Of a DNA stretch of 64,000 bases, positions 57,302 to 63,510 are shown one piece after another. The stretch is from assembly GCF_023051145.1 (NCBI RefSeq), contig NZ_JALKFS010000005.1:1364001-1428000 (forward strand), written 5' to 3'. Both the position numbers and the translations under genes were made by a program. The notes under the pieces are model-generated. The model was not told the origin of the DNA. It did not search any database and saw only the letters and a list, made by a program, of their open reading frames with translations. Within the stretch, counting starts at the first letter, position 1; every line of letters begins with the position of its first letter. Source of the stretch: Williamsia sp. DF01-3 (GTDB lineage: Bacteria; Actinomycetota; Actinomycetes; Mycobacteriales; Mycobacteriaceae).

Positions 57302-58991
57302 GAACTGGTCGGAGGTGCGTGAGGATCCACTTTGGCGTGCGATGGGTCTGCTCGGCCTGCGGAGACAGTTGGTGGCGAAGTCGCTGCTGCTGGGAATGTT
57401 CGGTGCCGGTAGCGCACTCGCGCTCGCCGCGCTGTCGGCATGGTTGATCACCCGCGCCTGGCAGATGCCGCCGGTTCTCTATCTGTCGCTTGCCGTGACA
57501 GCTGTGAGAGCGCTCGGCATCTCGCGCGGATTGTTCCGCTACCTCGAGCGCCTGGCCACACACGATGTGGCGCTCGATGCGATGTCGACTGCGCGCCGCC
57601 GACTGTACGTCGCCCTCGCGGGTGGACCGTCCGGGTACTCGGTGGGATTGCGCCGCGGAGAGTTGTTGTCGCGCACGGGTGCCGATGTCGACGAGGTGGG
57701 CAATGCCTTGATTCGGGTCCTCATACCCATCGGGGTGTCGATGGTGGTGTCCGGCGCCGCGGTGGTGATCATGGCGTGTGTCTCGTTGTGGGCGGCTGCC
57801 GCGTTGGCCGGTTGTTTGCTGATCAGCGGCGCAGTTGCGCCGTGGGGTGCCGCACGCGGTTCTCGCCGTGCCGCAGTGGATGCTGCCGTGGCGCAGGCGC
57901 GCAGCGCCGAGGCGATGATGAATCTGCTCGATCACGGACCCGAGCTGGCTGTGACACGTCGTCGCGCAGAGGTGTTGAGCGACTTGGCATCTGCCGAGGC
58001 CGATGCCCGCAGCGCCACCGATCGTGGAGCCCGGCAGAGCGCATGGGCGGCGGCCGCCACACCACTTGCCGTCGGGGTCTCGGTGATGGTGGCGGGGCTG
58101 ATCGGTATCGGCATGGCTGATTCGGTGTCCCCGATGACGCTGGGCGTTCTGATCCTCTTGCCCTTGAGTGCTTTCGACTCCACCAGCACCATGACCGACG
58201 CTGCGATGACACTGTCGCGCAGCCGCCTTGCGGCGCGGCGGATCATGACCCTCGTCGACCGCGCGCACGACTACCGAAACGCGCGCCCGAACCGGTCGAC
58301 TGCGCTGCCCGCCGGACACCTGACGGTCCGTGGCTTGCGATGGGGGTGGCCCGGCGGCACGGTGTTCGGCGGGTCTGCCGGCCTGGACCTGGACGTGAGA
58401 CCGGGGTCCAGGATCGCCCTCGTGGGTCCGAGTGGCTGTGGGAAATCTACCCTCTTGCTGACGTTGGCCGGGTTGCTGGAACCGGTGTCGGGGACCGTCA
58501 CCGTCTCGAGTCAGAGTGATTCGGACCCAATATATTTCGCGGAGAACGGTCACGTGTTCACCACCAGTGTCCGCGAGAACCTGCTGGTATCGCGCGGTGA
58601 CGCGACCGACGAGGTGCTGATGTCGGCGTTGGCATCCGTCGGCCTCGACACCTGGGTCGGGGGATTGCCGGATGGGCTCGACACGATCCTCGAAGGGGGT
58701 GCGGACGCGATCAGCGGGGGACAGCGGAGACGGCTGCTCGTGGCGCGCGCCCTGATCAACCCCTCGCCGGTGCTGATCATCGACGAACCCGGCGAAAATC
58801 TCGACCGTGCCGATGCGGACAGAGTGCAGGCCGGACTCCTCGATGTCGGTGGCGGACTCGTCGACCGTGGACGCGCGGTCGTTGTTGTCTCGCACCGACT
58901 ACCGGCTTCTCATCGTGCCGACAGGGTGATCGATCTGGGACCGAATTCGCTACGAGAAAAAGCGGTTGCCGACCTATCGAACCGGGGGTAA
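57288..58991 (+). CDS. cydC: ABC transporter CydC (cytochrome bd assembly)
   Basis: 567 residues: spans including SALALAALSAWLITRAWQMPPV, then an ATPase with GPSGCGKST, ISGGQRRRLLVARALINP and LIIDEPGENLD. Partner of CydD. Of two ATG codons, 57288 has GGAG at a good distance; 57282 is too close to it. It overlaps cydD. Ends the cyd operon; a structured element follows at 59047. Confidence 0.93.
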   Translation: MSIVENWSEVREDPLWRAMGLLGLRRQLVAKSLLLGMFGAGSALALAALSAWLITRAWQMPPVLYLSLAVTAVRALGISRGLFRYLERLATHDVALDAMSTARRRLYVALAGGPSGYSVGLRRGELLSRTGADVDEVGNALIRVLIPIGVSMVVSGAAVVIMACVSLWAAAALAGCLLISGAVAPWGAARGSRRAAVDAAVAQARSAEAMMNLLDHGPELAVTRRRAEVLSDLASAEADARSATDRGARQSAWAAAATPLAVGVSVMVAGLIGIGMADSVSPMTLGVLILLPLSAFDSTSTMTDAAMTLSRSRLAARRIMTLVDRAHDYRNARPNRSTALPAGHLTVRGLRWGWPGGTVFGGSAGLDLDVRPGSRIALVGPSGCGKSTLLLTLAGLLEPVSGTVTVSSQSDSDPIYFAENGHVFTTSVRENLLVSRGDATDEVLMSALASVGLDTWVGGLPDGLDTILEGGADAISGGQRRRLLVARALINPSPVLIIDEPGENLDRADADRVQAGLLDVGGGLVDRGRAVVVVSHRLPASHRADRVIDLGPNSLREKAVADLSNRG

Positions 58992-59009
58992 CTTCGTCCG
59001 TACACGAGG

Positions 59010-59062
59010 AAGGAGGTGGTCTGAAGTTGAATTCTTGGACACGTGAGGTGACCATCAGCTAA
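59010..59062 (+). other. Ribosome-binding site and mini-ORF (12 codons) after cydC
   Basis: AAGGAGG at 59010-59016 is a near-perfect ribosome-binding site, followed ten bases later by TTG 59027 and the open frame LNSWTREVTIS then TAA (59060-59062). The mini-ORF ends inside the first strand of the structured element that follows. It could be a leader peptide or a translated regulatory switch; a chance match is also possible. Confidence 0.4.
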
Positions 59063-59145
59063 CGGCCGTTTTGGTGGATTGGCCCGATCGGGATCGCACA
59101 TCGGTTGCGTCCCAGCGGTCGTCAGCTGAATCCACAATGGTCACC
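59047..59145 (+). ncRNA. Candidate structured RNA, nested stems and possible pseudoknot
   Basis: Nested complementary strands: GGTGACCAT (59047-59055) with ATGGTCACC (59137-59145), 9 perfect pairs; CAGCTAACGGCCG (59056-59068) with CGGTCGTCAGCTG (59116-59128), 13 positions with one mismatch and one G-U; an inner hairpin GGGA-T-CGCA (59090-59098) with TGCG-TCCC (59106-59113). In addition GTGGATT (59074-59080) pairs perfectly with AATCCAC (59129-59135) and crosses the 13-bp stem, giving a pseudoknot or a competing fold. The strand is assigned from the upstream ribosome-binding site. I cannot match it to a known RNA family. Thermodynamic folding was not run. Confidence 0.5.
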
Positions 59146-59146
59146 G

Positions 59147-59211
59147 GACCCCCGCACCTCGGCCTTGTCCAGGCCGAGAGAGCCCGCTGAGAAGTGGGTG
59201 GTGCGGGGGTC
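59147..59211. terminator. Nested GC-rich hairpins after the structured element
   Basis: GACCCCCGCACC (59147-59158) pairs perfectly with GGTGCGGGGGTC (59200-59211), and TCGGCC/GGCCGA (59159-59177) forms an inner hairpin. It begins one base after the structured element and probably terminates the cyd/element transcript. Bases 59212-59371 show nothing I can support. Confidence 0.5.
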
Positions 59212-59371
59212 TATCCATTTCCGGCTTTCCCGCTGCCGGGCGATCGGTGTCGGATCCGCCGCAATCGTGGCCGGCTCGGTGGGGAAGTCCGCCGATGCCC
59301 TGGCGATCGAACAGCGTGTGTCGCTGTCCCGAGGAACTGGCGAACGGCTATCGGGCAGCGAACGTCGGCAT

Positions 59372-59986
59372 TTACCCGGCGTAGCGGCGCAGTTTGGCCG
59401 ATGCGCGGGGAACGAGGTCGCCGTCCGCATCGACCCGTTCCTCGACGTAGGCGAGATCGCCGTCCTCGACGAGGCCGTACAGACGTTTGGCGCCTCCGGC
59501 ACGAGGGCCCGACGCAGCTTTGATCACGACGTCGGTGGCCAATTCCCACGACGTCTGATTGAGCGGCTTGCCATAGAACAGTTCCACCCAGCCCTCGGCA
59601 TGGGTGAGGAGGAGTTCGATGACGTCGTCATCGCCGATTCGCCAGAACCCGGCCTCGCGCTCACCGGGGCCGACGTAGTTGGCGTCCGCGTCGATGATCC
59701 AGGTGCGGGATTGCCAGACGAGGTAGTTGCCGCCGTCGTGGCTGATGATGACCTGTTGACCGAAGTGGTGGTCACCGTTCTCGGGGTCGTAACCTTCCCC
59801 TTCGCCGCGCCACACACCGACCATGGGTAGGAGCGCCAGCAGCCCGGGATGCAGGTCAGGGCCCTGACGCAGGTTGGCCGTGTCGTCCGGCAGCGGAAGA
59901 TCGGGCAGCGACGGGACGTTACGCGCCGCGGTTTCCTGCGCGCGGATCGCCGCCTGATTGATCGCTTCGTCGCCCGAACGGGTCAC
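59372..59986 (-). CDS. Nitrobindin-like / FABP-like beta-barrel protein (Rv0813c-like)
   Basis: A 204-residue lipocalin-like protein: [17 protein letters not shown] carries the GxWxGxG motif of the nitrobindin/FABP-like family (about residues 53-69); [10 protein letters not shown] and [26 protein letters not shown] follow. Family members bind heme or small lipids; the homologue Rv0813c has no settled role. The GTG start overlaps the TGA of the small upstream ORF by four bases (GTGA), a coupling signal. Confidence 0.88.
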
Positions 59987-60081
59987 GATTCGTCAGTGAC
60001 CAGCCGGTAGAGGACGTACAGGCCAAACCAGGAAATCAGGATGGTTGCCAGCACCAGCAACGCTTCGAAGAATATGACCAC
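59983..60081 (-). CDS. 32-codon single-span peptide coupled to the nitrobindin-like gene
   Basis: GTG 60081 opens a frame of 32 codons: [19 protein letters not shown], then [13 protein letters not shown] and TGA. It is a hydrophobic single transmembrane helix with a charged C-terminus. TAGAAT lies six bases before the GTG, so the transcript would be leaderless. The TGA overlaps the GTG of the downstream gene. It is too short to be flagged by most gene finders. Not a family I recognise. Confidence 0.55.
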
Positions 60082-60087
60082 CAGAGC

Positions 60088-60093
60088 ATTCTA
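60088..60093 (-). promoter_or_regulatory. -10 hexamer for the leaderless small ORF
   Basis: TAGAAT on the minus strand, six bases before GTG 60081. No ribosome-binding site is between them. Confidence 0.5.
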
Positions 60094-60282
60094 GCTCCCG
60101 ATGATGGGCGGGTGCGTGTGGGGATTCCCTCAGTGTGGCCGCGTGCGCGAGTGCACACAGATCGGTCAGCACGGTCACATCTGGCCACGGTCACGCGAGT
60201 TGTGTGCACGGAGGCACACGGCAGTCGAGAAAGAAGCCCGGCCCGCCTCGAGAGGCGGGCCGGGCTCGTCGGATCCGACCTT

Positions 60283-60588
60283 CTACTTGCTGACGGTCAC
60301 GTTCTGTTCGTGCACGCCGGGGCCCTCCGGGCTCACGGTGGCATCACCGTTGCCGATGGACGACAGCGCACGCAACGACCACGTGCCGGGCGCGGCGAAG
60401 AACCGGAAGTCACCGGTACCGCTGGCGACCACCTCTGCGGTGAACTCGCCGGTGTTGTCGAGAAGGCGGACGAACGCGCCGGCAACGGGGTTGCCGTCGG
60501 TGTCGACGACCTGACCTGTCAACACTGTTTCTTTTTCGGTATCGACACCGGCGGGCATCTTCTGTCCCTGTTTAGGCGCAGCACACAT
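60283..60588 (-). CDS. DUF1416 protein (SseC2/Rv0814c-like)
   Basis: A 101-residue protein, MCAAPKQGQKMPAG and TGQVVDTDGNPVAGAFVRLLDNTGEFTAEVV, matching the actinobacterial DUF1416 family that accompanies thiosulfate sulfurtransferase (sseC2 in M. tuberculosis). A single beta-sandwich-like domain. Starts two bases after the cysA2 stop, so it is co-translated. Function unknown. Confidence 0.9.
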   Translation of the reverse strand: MCAAPKQGQKMPAGVDTEKETVLTGQVVDTDGNPVAGAFVRLLDNTGEFTAEVVASGTGDFRFFAAPGTWSLRALSSIGNGDATVSPEGPGVHEQNVTVSK

Positions 60589-60590
60589 GA

Positions 60591-61430
60591 TTACTTGCTC
60601 TCTCCCAGTTCGATCGGGGCGCCGACGAGTGAGCCGTATTCGACCCAGCTGCCGTCGTAGTTCTTGACGTTCTTCTTGCCGAGCAGCTGATCGAGCACGA
60701 ACCAGGTGTGGCTCGAGCGCTCACCGATGCGGCAGTAGGCGATGGTCTCTTTGCTGTCGTCGAAACCCTTTTCGGCGTACAGCTTTTCGAGGTCATCGTC
60801 CGCCTTGAAGGTGCCGTCCTCGTTGGCGGTGGTGCTCCACGGGATGTTGATCGCGCCCGGGACATGGCCACGCTGCTGGGCCTGCTCCTGCGGCAGGTGT
60901 GCGGGAGCGAGGATCTTGCCCGAGAACTCGTCGGGGCTGCGCACGTCGACCAGGTTCTTGCTGCCGATGGCGTTGATGACCTCGTCGCGGAATGCGCGGA
61001 TGCTCGTGTCCGGGGCAGATGCGGTGTACGTGGTGGCTGGGCGGGTGACCTCGTCGGTCGACAGCGGACGGCCGTCGAGCTCCCATTTCTTGCGGCCGCC
61101 GTCGATGAGCTTGACGTCCTTGTGGCCGTAGAGCTTGAAGTACCAGTAGGCGTAGGCAGCGAACCAGTTGTTGTTGCCGCCGTAGAGAACAACGGTGTCG
61201 TCGTTGGAGACGCCCTTGGCCGACAACAACTCCGAGAACTGCTCCTGGTTCAGGAAGTCGCGGCGAACGCCGTCCTGCAGGTCTTTGCGCCAGTCGAGGC
61301 GGATGGCGCCTTCGATGTGTCCGCCCTCGTAGGCGGTGGTGTCCTCGTCGACCTCGATGAAGACGGTCTTGTCTGCTTTCAGGTTCTGCTCAGCCCAGTC
61401 GGCGCTGACCAGGACGTCGGAGCGAGCCAT
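60591..61430 (-). CDS. cysA2: Thiosulfate sulfurtransferase (rhodanese)
   Basis: A 279-residue tandem rhodanese: an N-terminal inactive domain and a C-terminal domain with the catalytic Cys233 in AYCRIGERSSHTWF. It transfers sulfane sulfur to thiols. ATG 61430 has GAAAGGAAA just upstream. The longer frame to 61484 is not needed. Behind it lies a polycysteine leader peptide (61614-61700), pointing to cysteine-responsive control, with sseC downstream in the operon. Confidence 0.93.
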   Translation of the reverse strand: MARSDVLVSADWAEQNLKADKTVFIEVDEDTTAYEGGHIEGAIRLDWRKDLQDGVRRDFLNQEQFSELLSAKGVSNDDTVVLYGGNNNWFAAYAYWYFKLYGHKDVKLIDGGRKKWELDGRPLSTDEVTRPATTYTASAPDTSIRAFRDEVINAIGSKNLVDVRSPDEFSGKILAPAHLPQEQAQQRGHVPGAINIPWSTTANEDGTFKADDDLEKLYAEKGFDDSKETIAYCRIGERSSHTWFVLDQLLGKKNVKNYDGSWVEYGSLVGAPIELGESK

Positions 61431-61608
61431 GGTTTTCCTTTCGTGGTGGATGCGGCATCGAGAAGCGATCCGCAGTAGATACAACTGTGGTGGTGCTCGG
61501 AGGTTGGAGCTTGGGGGGTGGTGCTGGGGCGTGATGAATCGCTGGAGCGAAGAACGCGAACCAGGGGCACGCCGGACGTGCGGGACGCGGAAGATCTCGG
61601 AACGGCCC

Positions 61609-61621
61609 GCCGGTTACCGGC
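61609..61621. promoter_or_regulatory. Palindrome over the leader-peptide stop codon
   Basis: GCCGGT-T-ACCGGC is a perfect 6-bp inverted repeat whose centre is the TAA stop of the leader peptide. It could act in attenuation, depending on whether the ribosome stalls at the cysteine codons. Confidence 0.4.
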
Positions 61622-61700
61622 TCAGACAGCAACAATTGGCGATACGACAGAAGTCGATCGCCCGACGGCGGGTGAGCATCAACTCACAGCCCAGTTGCAT
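61614..61700 (-). CDS. Polycysteine leader peptide (28 aa) of the cysA2 operon
   Basis: ATG 61700 opens a 28-residue frame that begins MQLGCELMLTRRRAIDF and ends ANCCCLSR: three consecutive Cys codons (TGT TGC TGT) lie four codons before the TAA. TAAGCT (61708-61713) is seven bases before the ATG, so the transcript would be leaderless. Such leaderless Cys-rich uORFs are known in mycobacteria as cysteine-responsive attenuators of operons (Canestrari et al. 2020, as I recall). The gene behind it, cysA2, fits. Confidence 0.78.
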   Translation of the reverse strand: MQLGCELMLTRRRAIDFCRIANCCCLSR

Positions 61701-61707
61701 GGCCGAC

Positions 61708-61713
61708 AGCTTA
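61708..61713 (-). promoter_or_regulatory. -10 hexamer for the leaderless polycysteine uORF
   Basis: TAAGCT, seven bases before ATG 61700. The same bases contain the TAA stop (61711-61713) of the DUF2993 gene upstream, so the promoter overlaps the end of that gene. Confidence 0.6.
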
Positions 61714-62547
61714 CCGCAGCGTGCGACCACTCCGAGATGGCCCTTCCCAGAAGTCCCGAGCGGTTGCGACCAACGGCGCGGGCTCGGCCTCGAGCACCAC
61801 ATCGCTGCCCTGTGAGGCCGCCTCCACCGCCGGCAACGACCACGGAAGTGGCAGTACCGGAAGCGTCTTGGTGAACTGGGCGAGCACCATCGACTCGGCC
61901 CCGGGCGGAACGTCGGACTCCACGTGCTCGGCGGGACCGGAGTAGAGGTTGCGGGCATCGATGTGAAGAGCACCTTCACGTACGGACAGATCAACCGCGA
62001 CGCTCACCTTTTCGCGGCGTTGCCCGGAACTGTGACCGGAATTACGTGGATCGCTCACATTGACCGTCCCGGTCAGGATGACGCCGGTGCTGGTCGAGAG
62101 GATCCCGTCGCCCGGACCACCACCGCCGGCCTTGTCTTCGGGCGCCGGCGTGGTGACGGTGAGGTCGACGATGCCGAGGAATCGGCCGAGATTGACCGAG
62201 TCGATCTTCAGGGACGCGGTGGCCTTGGCCGCAGTCAGTTCGGTGTTCTGTCCGATGACCCATTTGCCCTCTGCTCGGCGCACGTCGGACAGCTTCGACC
62301 GCAGGTCGCCCCGGCGCCCATCACCCAGGTCAGCGCCCCGCGCAGTGATGCCGATCTGGTCGTAGGTGTCGCCGGCGGCCTGGTCGACGAAGGGAAAGCC
62401 GGAGATGGTGATCTCGGGGTCGAACTCCAGGTCGGAAGCCTCCCGCAACGCGGTGGAATAGCGGTACTCTGCGTAGGCCGCGGATGCGAAATCGGCGATC
62501 GTGGCGACCAAGAGGGTGATGAGCACACCGACTGCCAGCTTGCGCAA
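61711..62547 (-). CDS. DUF2993 secreted/anchored protein
   Basis: A 278-residue protein with an N-terminal hydrophobic segment (MRKLAVGVLITLLVATIADFA, no cleavage site resolved), then a DUF2993 (LmeA-like) lipid-binding domain: FDPEITISGFPFVDQAAGDTYDQIGI. Likely anchored at the outer face of the membrane. LmeA in M. tuberculosis (Rv0817c) affects lipomannan maturation; this homologue holds the same neighbourhood before glnR. A perfect palindrome (ATGGACT-C-AGTCCAT, 62563-62577) lies just upstream of its start. Confidence 0.88.
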   Translation of the reverse strand: MRKLAVGVLITLLVATIADFASAAYAEYRYSTALREASDLEFDPEITISGFPFVDQAAGDTYDQIGITARGADLGDGRRGDLRSKLSDVRRAEGKWVIGQNTELTAAKATASLKIDSVNLGRFLGIVDLTVTTPAPEDKAGGGGPGDGILSTSTGVILTGTVNVSDPRNSGHSSGQRREKVSVAVDLSVREGALHIDARNLYSGPAEHVESDVPPGAESMVLAQFTKTLPVLPLPWSLPAVEAASQGSDVVLEAEPAPLVATARDFWEGPSRSGRTLR

Positions 62548-62562
62548 CGATTCCCCTCTGTA

Positions 62563-62577
62563 ATGGACTCAGTCCAT
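62563..62577. promoter_or_regulatory. Palindrome between DUF2993 and glnR
   Basis: ATGGACT-C-AGTCCAT is a perfect 7-bp inverted repeat, 16 bases before the DUF2993 start and about 150 bases before glnR. Possible operator for one of the divergent genes. Confidence 0.35.
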
Positions 62578-62724
62578 CCGGCGACGCGGCCGGCGACCGC
62601 CGGTGGAGACTCCCGCTGGGGACTTGTTAACGGGTAACGACCGATATGACGCTATTCTGTCATCTATCTCGCACACGTTGGTAAGGCAGCGTACATATAC
62701 GAATAATCGAGATCGGAGTGGTTT

Positions 62725-63510
62725 GTGGATCTCTTGTTACTGACAGCCGATCCCACCCCTGAGTCTGTATTGCCGTCGTTGTCACTGCTGGCTCATACCG
62801 TTCGAGTGGCGCCCACCGAGGTGTCCTCATTGATGGAAGCCGGAAACGCAGATGTAGCCATCGTTGATGCGCGTTCTGACCTTGCCGCCGCGCGCGGCCT
62901 GTGCCGACTGCTGGGGAGTACGGGTTCATCGGTCCCCGTGGTCGCGGTGCTGACCGAGGGCGGTCTGGTGGCCGTCAACTCCGAATGGGGCCTCGACGAC
63001 TTCCTGCTGCCCGACACCGGTCCGGCCGAACTCGATGCGCGCCTGCGCCTTCTGGTCGTGCGCACCCGAGGCGTCACCGCCGAGGAGGCCAGTGGAAAGG
63101 TCACCCTCGGTGACCTGGTGATCGACGAGGGCACCTACACGGCACGGCTGCGTGGACGCCCGCTCGACCTGACCTACAAGGAGTTCGAACTCCTGAAGTA
63201 CCTCGCGCAGAACGCCGGTCGCGTCTTCACCCGGGCTCAACTGCTTCAAGAGGTGTGGGGATACGACTTCTTCGGCGGCACCCGCACGGTCGACGTGCAC
63301 GTCCGGCGTCTTCGCGCCAAACTCGGCAGCGAGTACGAGTCGTTGATCGGTACCGTCCGGAACGTCGGCTACAAGGCGGTGCGTCCGAGCCGGGGCGGTC
63401 GCGGTGGCGGCGAGACCTCCACCGACAACGGAGATCTCGACGATCTGGGTGGATCGGACGAGGTCGAGTTCCCGGACCAGGAACTGAGTTCGAGCGCCAA
63501 TGGTGGCTGA
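62725..63510 (+). CDS. glnR: Nitrogen regulator GlnR (OmpR-type orphan)
   Basis: A 261-residue response regulator. The N-terminal receiver-like domain lacks a neighbouring kinase; the C-terminal winged helix is [53 protein letters not shown]. GlnR is the global nitrogen regulator of actinomycetes (Rv0818 in M. tuberculosis). GTG 62725 has ATCGGAG at 62712-62718. The mshD start overlaps its last codons. Confidence 0.92.

Follow-up and report, generated by a model that had tools for sequence, protein, structure and literature searches.

Dual-function small RNAs (sRNAs), which encode a peptide, include SgrS/SgrT, SR1/SR1P, and RNAIII/delta-haemolysin. In these systems, the peptide is under selection. 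The Ms_IGR-5 RNA resembles them in that it is a structured, stand-alone RNA carrying a Shine–Dalgarno (SD) sequence and a short reading frame. Comparison among relatives reveals in Ms_IGR-5 the attributes by which dual-function sRNAs are recognized: a conserved, translatable frame with an SD, a start, and a stop. The difference concerns the product. In the dual-function sRNAs the peptide is selected, whereas in Ms_IGR-5 the frame is kept and the peptide, for the most part, appears not to be.

Leader-peptide attenuators provide a second parallel. In both cases, the choice of helices would depend on a ribosome occupying a mini-ORF. Attenuators, however, have a fixed downstream gene to regulate, and Ms_IGR-5 does not: no gene lies directly downstream on the same strand in the window (the entire 64,000-nucleotide stretch of Williamsia sp. 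DF01-3 DNA analyzed here), where the following gene is convergent, and such a gene lies within 60 nt in 14 of 102 loci among relatives. Finally, tmRNA shares with Ms_IGR-5 a pseudoknotted fold, a stand-alone nature, and a short reading frame inside the RNA. Unlike Ms_IGR-5, tmRNA possesses a tRNA-like end and lacks SD-led initiation.

Ms_IGR-5 itself is a known family of actinobacterial sRNAs, with Li et al. (2013, RNA) as its founding paper, as cited in PMC10454040. Its homologues are reported to be transcribed in Streptomyces lividans, with validation by RNA-seq (PMC8079986), in S. avermitilis, as an sRNA unit (PMC8780764), and in Mycobacterium smegmatis, where the RNA is said to be longer than originally reported (PMC10454040). 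Rfam lists Ms_IGR-5 as an sRNA without function. Our search of the literature outside subscription journals returned papers that merely list the RNA and assign it no function, and none that describes the conserved frame or the two helices, called P2 and the kissing helix, reported below. Here, we show that a Williamsia element is a new example of this family, rather than something new in kind. Judged by comparison with its relatives, the Williamsia RNA most likely stands alone, forms a pseudoknot, and is gated by ribosomes that translate its mini-ORF.

Identity of the element and its relatives

Scanning the whole window against Rfam named a single family, Ms_IGR-5 (RF02471). The match covers positions 1 to 184 of the 184-position model and scores 96.8 bits against a cut-off of 45. 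The original prediction had singled out 59047-59145 as an unexplained structured element; that stretch is the middle part of the match. The parts of the element are as follows.

58956..58994, + strand: promoter, with an A-tract at 58956-58961, TTG at 58966-58968, and the -10 element TAACTT at 58989-58994; conserved in relatives
59002..59218, + strand: Ms_IGR-5 RNA (RF02471), full-model cmscan match with a putative 5′ end
59010..59021, + strand: long SD, AAGGAGGUGGUC, forming a duplex with the 16S 3′ tail
59027..59062, + strand: mini-ORF TTG...TAA, encoding MNSWTREVTIS in 11 codons followed by a stop; relatives keep the frame, start, and stop
59037..59041, + strand: GGACA of the mini-ORF, which supplies the 5′ strand of the kissing helix; covariation, with a sixth pair, 59036:59171, possible
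59047..59055, + strand: P2 5′ arm (the 9-bp stem of the original prediction), within the mini-ORF; covariation at pairs 5, 7, 8, 9, and 10
59055..59068, + strand: P3 5′ arm (the predicted 13-bp stem), holding the stop codon; pairing search, Rfam consensus, and MFE fold
59074..59080, + strand: PK2 5′ strand; pairing search, with support limited to some lineages
59116..59129, + strand: P3 3′ arm; pairing search, Rfam consensus, and MFE fold
59129..59135, + strand: PK2 3′ strand; pairing search, with support limited to some lineages
59137..59145, + strand: P2 3′ arm; pairing search and covariation
59147..59211, + strand: terminator-like hairpin with inner hairpins; pairing search and fold
59166..59170, + strand: UGUCC, in the apical loop of the first inner hairpin of the terminator, which supplies the 3′ strand of the kissing helix; covariation

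Within its own genome, the RF02471 model finds one match, and a nucleotide search with the element returns the self-match alone. The suggestion that the stems belong to a short mobile repeat, or to a scattered family of inverted repeats, is ruled out by this single copy. Across the class, the model matches 249 of 394 genomes, once in each except for two genomes that have two matches. In a phylum-wide draw, 57 of 296 genomes have a match, 26 of them over the cut-off, and 0 of 14 control genomes do.

We analyzed 225 class copies, comprising 105 of the 249 model matches and 120 among the matches listed by a pattern scan of named genomes; three pairs are the same element, leaving 222 distinct copies. 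The scan fixed the SD, GGAC, and GTGAGGTG, so these three are not independent evidence for the 120 copies, while start, stop, loop, and 3′ arm lay outside the search pattern. We kept apart from the class copies a further set of 38 weak matches, which come from other classes. Individual analyses use 221 copies for the promoter (four lack the ACAC anchor), 213 for P2 (the 3′ arm was not found in 8 of 221), and 210 for the kissing helix (the terminator was not located in four of the 225, and the loop motif was not found in 11 more). The automatic terminator rule misplaces a few terminators, those of copies L073 and L204 among them, and the loop picked for L077 appears wrong.

The relatives share with the window copy the layout of SD, promoter, P3, and terminator. 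They differ from it in frame length, with 12 codons versus the 11 found in the window and in Williamsia soli. The latter is the nearest named relative among the matches listed, and its cyd and nitrobindin genes align with those of the window at 72-84% identity.

Helices of the RNA

The RNA is more strongly structured than its composition predicts. Specifically, 59047-59145 folds at -46.6 kcal/mol (z -4.45) and 59002-59222 gives z -5.37, and in each case 0 of 200 dinucleotide shuffles folded as well. Thus, the claim that pairing here is denser than chance allows is upheld, as is that of a structured RNA, for which conserved homologues with covariation had been named as the test: the element is a member of RF02471, and its homologues are kept with covariation. 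The three pairings said to nest, of 9, 13, and 8 bp, all exist. The 9-bp pairing, P2 (59047-59055 with 59137-59145), is perfect. The 13-bp pairing contains mismatches and corresponds to P3, in which 59055-59068 pairs with 59116-59129 (14 nt, 86%). The 8-bp pairing (59158-59165 with 59171-59178) is not nested with the others but lies inside the terminator. The terminator-like 12-bp stem is present as predicted, at 59147-59158 with 59200-59211, and forms part of a 23-nt, 78% pairing.

P2 covaries among relatives. With pairs 1-4 serving as the anchor, Watson–Crick counts in the 213 copies exceed those of every one of 1000 shuffles at pair 5 (99 versus 75), pair 7 (185 versus 164), pair 8 (180 versus 164), pair 9 (139 versus 106), and pair 10 (152 versus 92). 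Pair 6 shows no excess over the 1000 shuffles in these copies (185 versus 185). Between disjoint closest pairs of copies, double changes that keep pairing number 3, 7, 7, 14, and 24 at pairs 5, 7, 8, 9, and 10, respectively, against 3, 2, 1, 2, and 13 that fail to keep it. Changes on one side alone, in which pairing is lost or was absent, are frequent as well at these positions (11, 17, 21, 24, and 38).

The kissing helix joins the mini-ORF to the terminator. GGAC-N in the frame faces N-GUCC in the loop, and N is Watson–Crick in 134 of 210 copies (shuffle mean 65, maximum 91, 5000 shuffles); after dereplication, the count is 131 of 206. The pairs include A-U in 39 copies, G-C in 56 (within GGAC copies), and U-A in 36. 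Disjoint closest pairs, most of which are not close, show 25 double changes that keep Watson–Crick pairing, 10 that do not, and 53 single changes. In 62 of the 210 copies, W. soli included (A against C), N is neither Watson–Crick nor G-U. GGAT is accompanied by AUCC in three of four copies. In other classes, CGAYC occurs with GGTCG in 4 of 4 copies, and GGACC occurs with GGTCC in 25 of 28 and with GGTCG in 2 of 28. There, loop complementarity is significant in 2 of 37 per-sequence tests, and a complement to any 5-mer is found in 34 of 38 versus 72% for swapped partners.

Extensions of this helix were also considered. N-GGAC with GUCC-N is weak (71 of 210 versus 56 expected, shuffle maximum 74), and a pair beyond GGAC-N is ruled out (7 of 210 versus 18 expected). 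GUCC beside the SD offers a second partner for the GGAC of the frame, in a hairpin with a complementary core; its next pair does not covary (62 of 225 Watson–Crick, 70 expected), and we therefore assign GGAC to the terminator loop. On this comparative evidence, the broadly covarying crossing pairing of the RNA is 59037-59041 with 59166-59170, outside the stretch originally predicted.

The Rfam RF02471 consensus contains neither the conserved frame nor P2 nor the kissing helix. The consensus instead pairs the SD with codons 10-12 of the mini-ORF (model positions 14-19 with 55-60). The 5′ strand of that helix is nearly invariant, and its 3′ strand is taken by the covarying P2. The consensus helix may represent an alternative state or an error in the model.

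A conserved frame and its peptide

The predicted mini-ORF is present at 59027-59062, and its start, frame, and stop are kept in relatives. An NTG start lies seven codons ahead of a GAG codon in 221 of 225 copies (TTG 112, ATG 83, GTG 26) and six codons ahead in three (the window, W. soli, and L206), for NTG in 224 of 225; the exception, L022, has ATT. A stop lies five codons past GAG in 223 of 225 (TAG 205, TAA 9, TGA 9). In 221 copies, between 8 and 11 nt separate the SD from the start; thus, indels fall outside the frame or come in threes.

Of the 38 weak matches in the other classes, 36 keep the stop at this codon. The other two, L272 and L275, have GAGGTG in a different frame, yet a 10-codon TTG...TAG can be read in each. 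These two have a shorter layout and may form a separate subfamily. Setting them apart, an ATG, GTG, or TTG start is present in the GAG frame at the expected place in 19 of 38, and 17 of 38 lack one there, having CTG (9), ATT (3), ATC (3), ATA (1), or none of these (1). The CTG, ATT, ATC, and ATA codons, found in L245, L248, L251, L253, L254, L257, and others of L241-L278, could reflect near-cognate initiation.

Codons 2-4 carry 24 synonymous and 65 non-synonymous single changes, with 18.2 synonymous changes expected. Thus, outside the positions fixed by RNA pairing, the peptide appears to change almost neutrally; given the excess of 24 over 18.2, weak selection on it may still act, chiefly at codon 3. 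By contrast, codons 8-9, GAG and GTG, are invariant in 221 of 221 copies. That a synonymous codon is never used at either position indicates a constraint on the RNA. We read the pattern as selection for translation and RNA pairing, not for the peptide.

The alternative is that Ms_IGR-5 is a small mRNA, with the 11-12 residue peptide as its functional product and the fold serving stability. The conservation of start, frame, stop, and SD fits this idea, as does a recurring C-terminal half, T-R/C-E-V-A-A/V. Pairing in P2 and in the kissing helix, however, fixes the nucleotides that encode the recurring residues; codons 8-9 do not change even synonymously while codons 2-4 appear near-neutral, and L272 and L275 keep a frame that encodes an unrelated peptide. 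We consider a functional peptide unlikely. Published evidence of contact with ribosomes, which gating through translation would require, comes from PMC4974804. It reports ribosome-protected reads for the Ms_IGR-5 homologues of M. abscessus and M. smegmatis, and its authors warn that sedimentation can co-pellet non-coding RNPs and that most E. coli non-coding RNAs show footprints.

The crossing pairing PK2

The original prediction included a 7-bp pairing, here PK2, that crosses the 13-bp stem. PK2 exists in the window, with 100% pairing, and it crosses P3; among relatives, however, it is recognizable only in some lineages. For class members, the median shuffle p is 0.53, and p is at most 0.05 in 30 of 213 copies, values that led us to dismiss PK2 as a family-wide feature and to retain it as lineage-limited. 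In other classes, p is at most 0.05 in 11 of 25 copies, after 13 of 38 without a recognizable J motif were dropped. By type, GGATT(C) occurs with AATCC in 14 of 47 copies and with AATCCC in 5 of 38, GGAAT with AATTCC in 10 of 51, and GGTAT with AATACC in 3 of 36, with few mismatched partners. The proposal that the RNA switches between the 13-bp and 7-bp helices is not supported: PK2 and P3 share one base only, 59129, and can coexist as a pseudoknot, and PK2 is confined to some lineages.

Ahead of the P2 3′ arm, 172 of 238 copies have a recognizable GAAUnCC segment (59130-59135 in the window), mostly lacking a partner within the RNA. It is possibly a seed or a tertiary contact. As a target-binding seed, the segment could serve an ordinary trans-acting antisense sRNA, in which the mini-ORF is incidental or merely protects the 5′ end. 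A stand-alone unit with its own promoter and terminator suits such an RNA. An incidental frame, on the other hand, would not hold its start, frame, and stop through indels, and we regard this account as improbable in comparison with gating by translating ribosomes.

The Shine–Dalgarno sequence

The predicted ribosome-binding site is the SD at 59010-59021. Its duplex with the 16S 3′ tail of its own genome is predicted at -26.3 kcal/mol, the strongest 16S-tail pairing scanned in the window; the next best site reaches -20.6 (both strands were scanned, prefiltered to stretches holding an SD-like core). AGGAGGTGRTC-like sites number nine in the genome, two of them in 16S tails, the same as for a reversed-pattern control, and the notion that the SD is unique by exact pattern is consequently unsupported. 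In other classes, the SD is kept in 38 of 38 weak matches.

Such an SD could make the RNA a decoy, that is, an abundant RNA that ties up 30S subunits or senses their pool. The predicted lead of 5.7 kcal/mol over any other scanned site, and the persistence of the SD in the other classes, agree with this idea. A decoy, however, needs neither a conserved stop codon nor a conserved frame, and we judge it quite unlikely.

A probable transcription unit of its own

Comparison with relatives suggests that Ms_IGR-5 is a transcription unit of its own, about 215 nt long, with a predicted transcript start and end. Counting back from the ACAC start, 220 of 221 relatives carry TANNNT at -13/-12; an equal-width stretch further upstream has it in 8 of 221. 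In the -35-like region, T, T, and G occupy -36 to -34 in 75, 73, and 58% of the 221 relatives, and the A-tract has A at -43/-42 in 78 and 88%. In the window, the promoter sits within the 3′-terminal part of cydC, whose TAA stop codon (58989-58991) provides the first bases of the -10 element TAACTT, and the -35-like TTG lies inside the coding end of cydC.

The genes that flank Ms_IGR-5 differ between lineages and include cydC, nitrobindin-like genes, and other, unrelated neighbors, whose names are our presumptive readings of the sequences. Downstream in the window, at 59372-63510, are what we take to be nitrobindin-like, SseC, CysA2, and GlnR-like genes, in the order of Mycobacterium tuberculosis Rv0813c-Rv0818. 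Our home-made gene caller places the nearest downstream gene opposite to the strand of the RNA in 62 of the 102 loci for which it called one. The original prediction of a cis-regulatory or trans-acting RNA is thus narrowed: a stand-alone, trans-type transcript is most likely, and a fixed cis leader is dismissed. A cis element, whether a cydC 3′ UTR or terminator or a leader of the following gene, is very improbable given the promoter of its own, neighbors that vary by lineage, and the convergent orientation of the following gene in those 62 loci, even with an RNA that begins 10 nt past the cydC stop in the window and cydC-like genes upstream in several relatives.

A proposed ribosome-gated RNA

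Comparison lends good support to the architecture of Ms_IGR-5, which comprises family membership, promoter, conserved frame, and covarying P2 and kissing helix. What we infer from it is translation in this organism, together with gating and output. Our best explanation, which we hold to be somewhat more probable than otherwise, is that Ms_IGR-5 toggles between closed and open forms as ribosomes translate the mini-ORF, with the act of translation, and not the peptide, being selected.

The arrangement of the helices suggests how the toggle could operate. In the fold, the second half of the mini-ORF is base-paired in P2, P3, and the kissing helix (and, in some lineages, PK2). The kissing helix sets in at roughly nucleotide 11-14 of the mini-ORF; in the window copy, its 5′ strand begins at nucleotide 11, P2 begins at nucleotide 21, and P3 includes the stop. 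Ribosomes would bind the SD and translate the mini-ORF. The kissing helix would lie at the leading edge of the initiating ribosome and be broken by it, and elongation would then open P2 and P3. The RNA would thereby alternate between two forms, one closed and pseudoknotted and the other open and translated, with the balance set by the ease of ribosome initiation. The selected property would be translation, that is, start, frame, and stop, rather than the peptide.

The helix drawn by Rfam could have a place in this cycle. Prior to synthesis of the 3′ half, the SD could pair with the codons that later enter P2, and formation of P2 would free the SD. The RNA might therefore be closed to ribosomes while incomplete, open once folded, and unfolded by translation. 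Candidate outputs are antisense action of the freed P2 3′ arm, protein binding, stability, and occupation of 30S subunits.

We speculate further, and only tentatively, that Ms_IGR-5 is a phylum-spread, ribosome-gated switch that reads the capacity for translation initiation, and for which translation of the mini-ORF is the signal, whatever the peptide. Comparison makes Ms_IGR-5 testable, in that it predicts a frame that is translated although its peptide can be dispensed with, two helices beyond the public model, and a translation-dependent fold. If the idea is correct, Ms_IGR-5 would be a widely distributed RNA gauge of ribosome availability.
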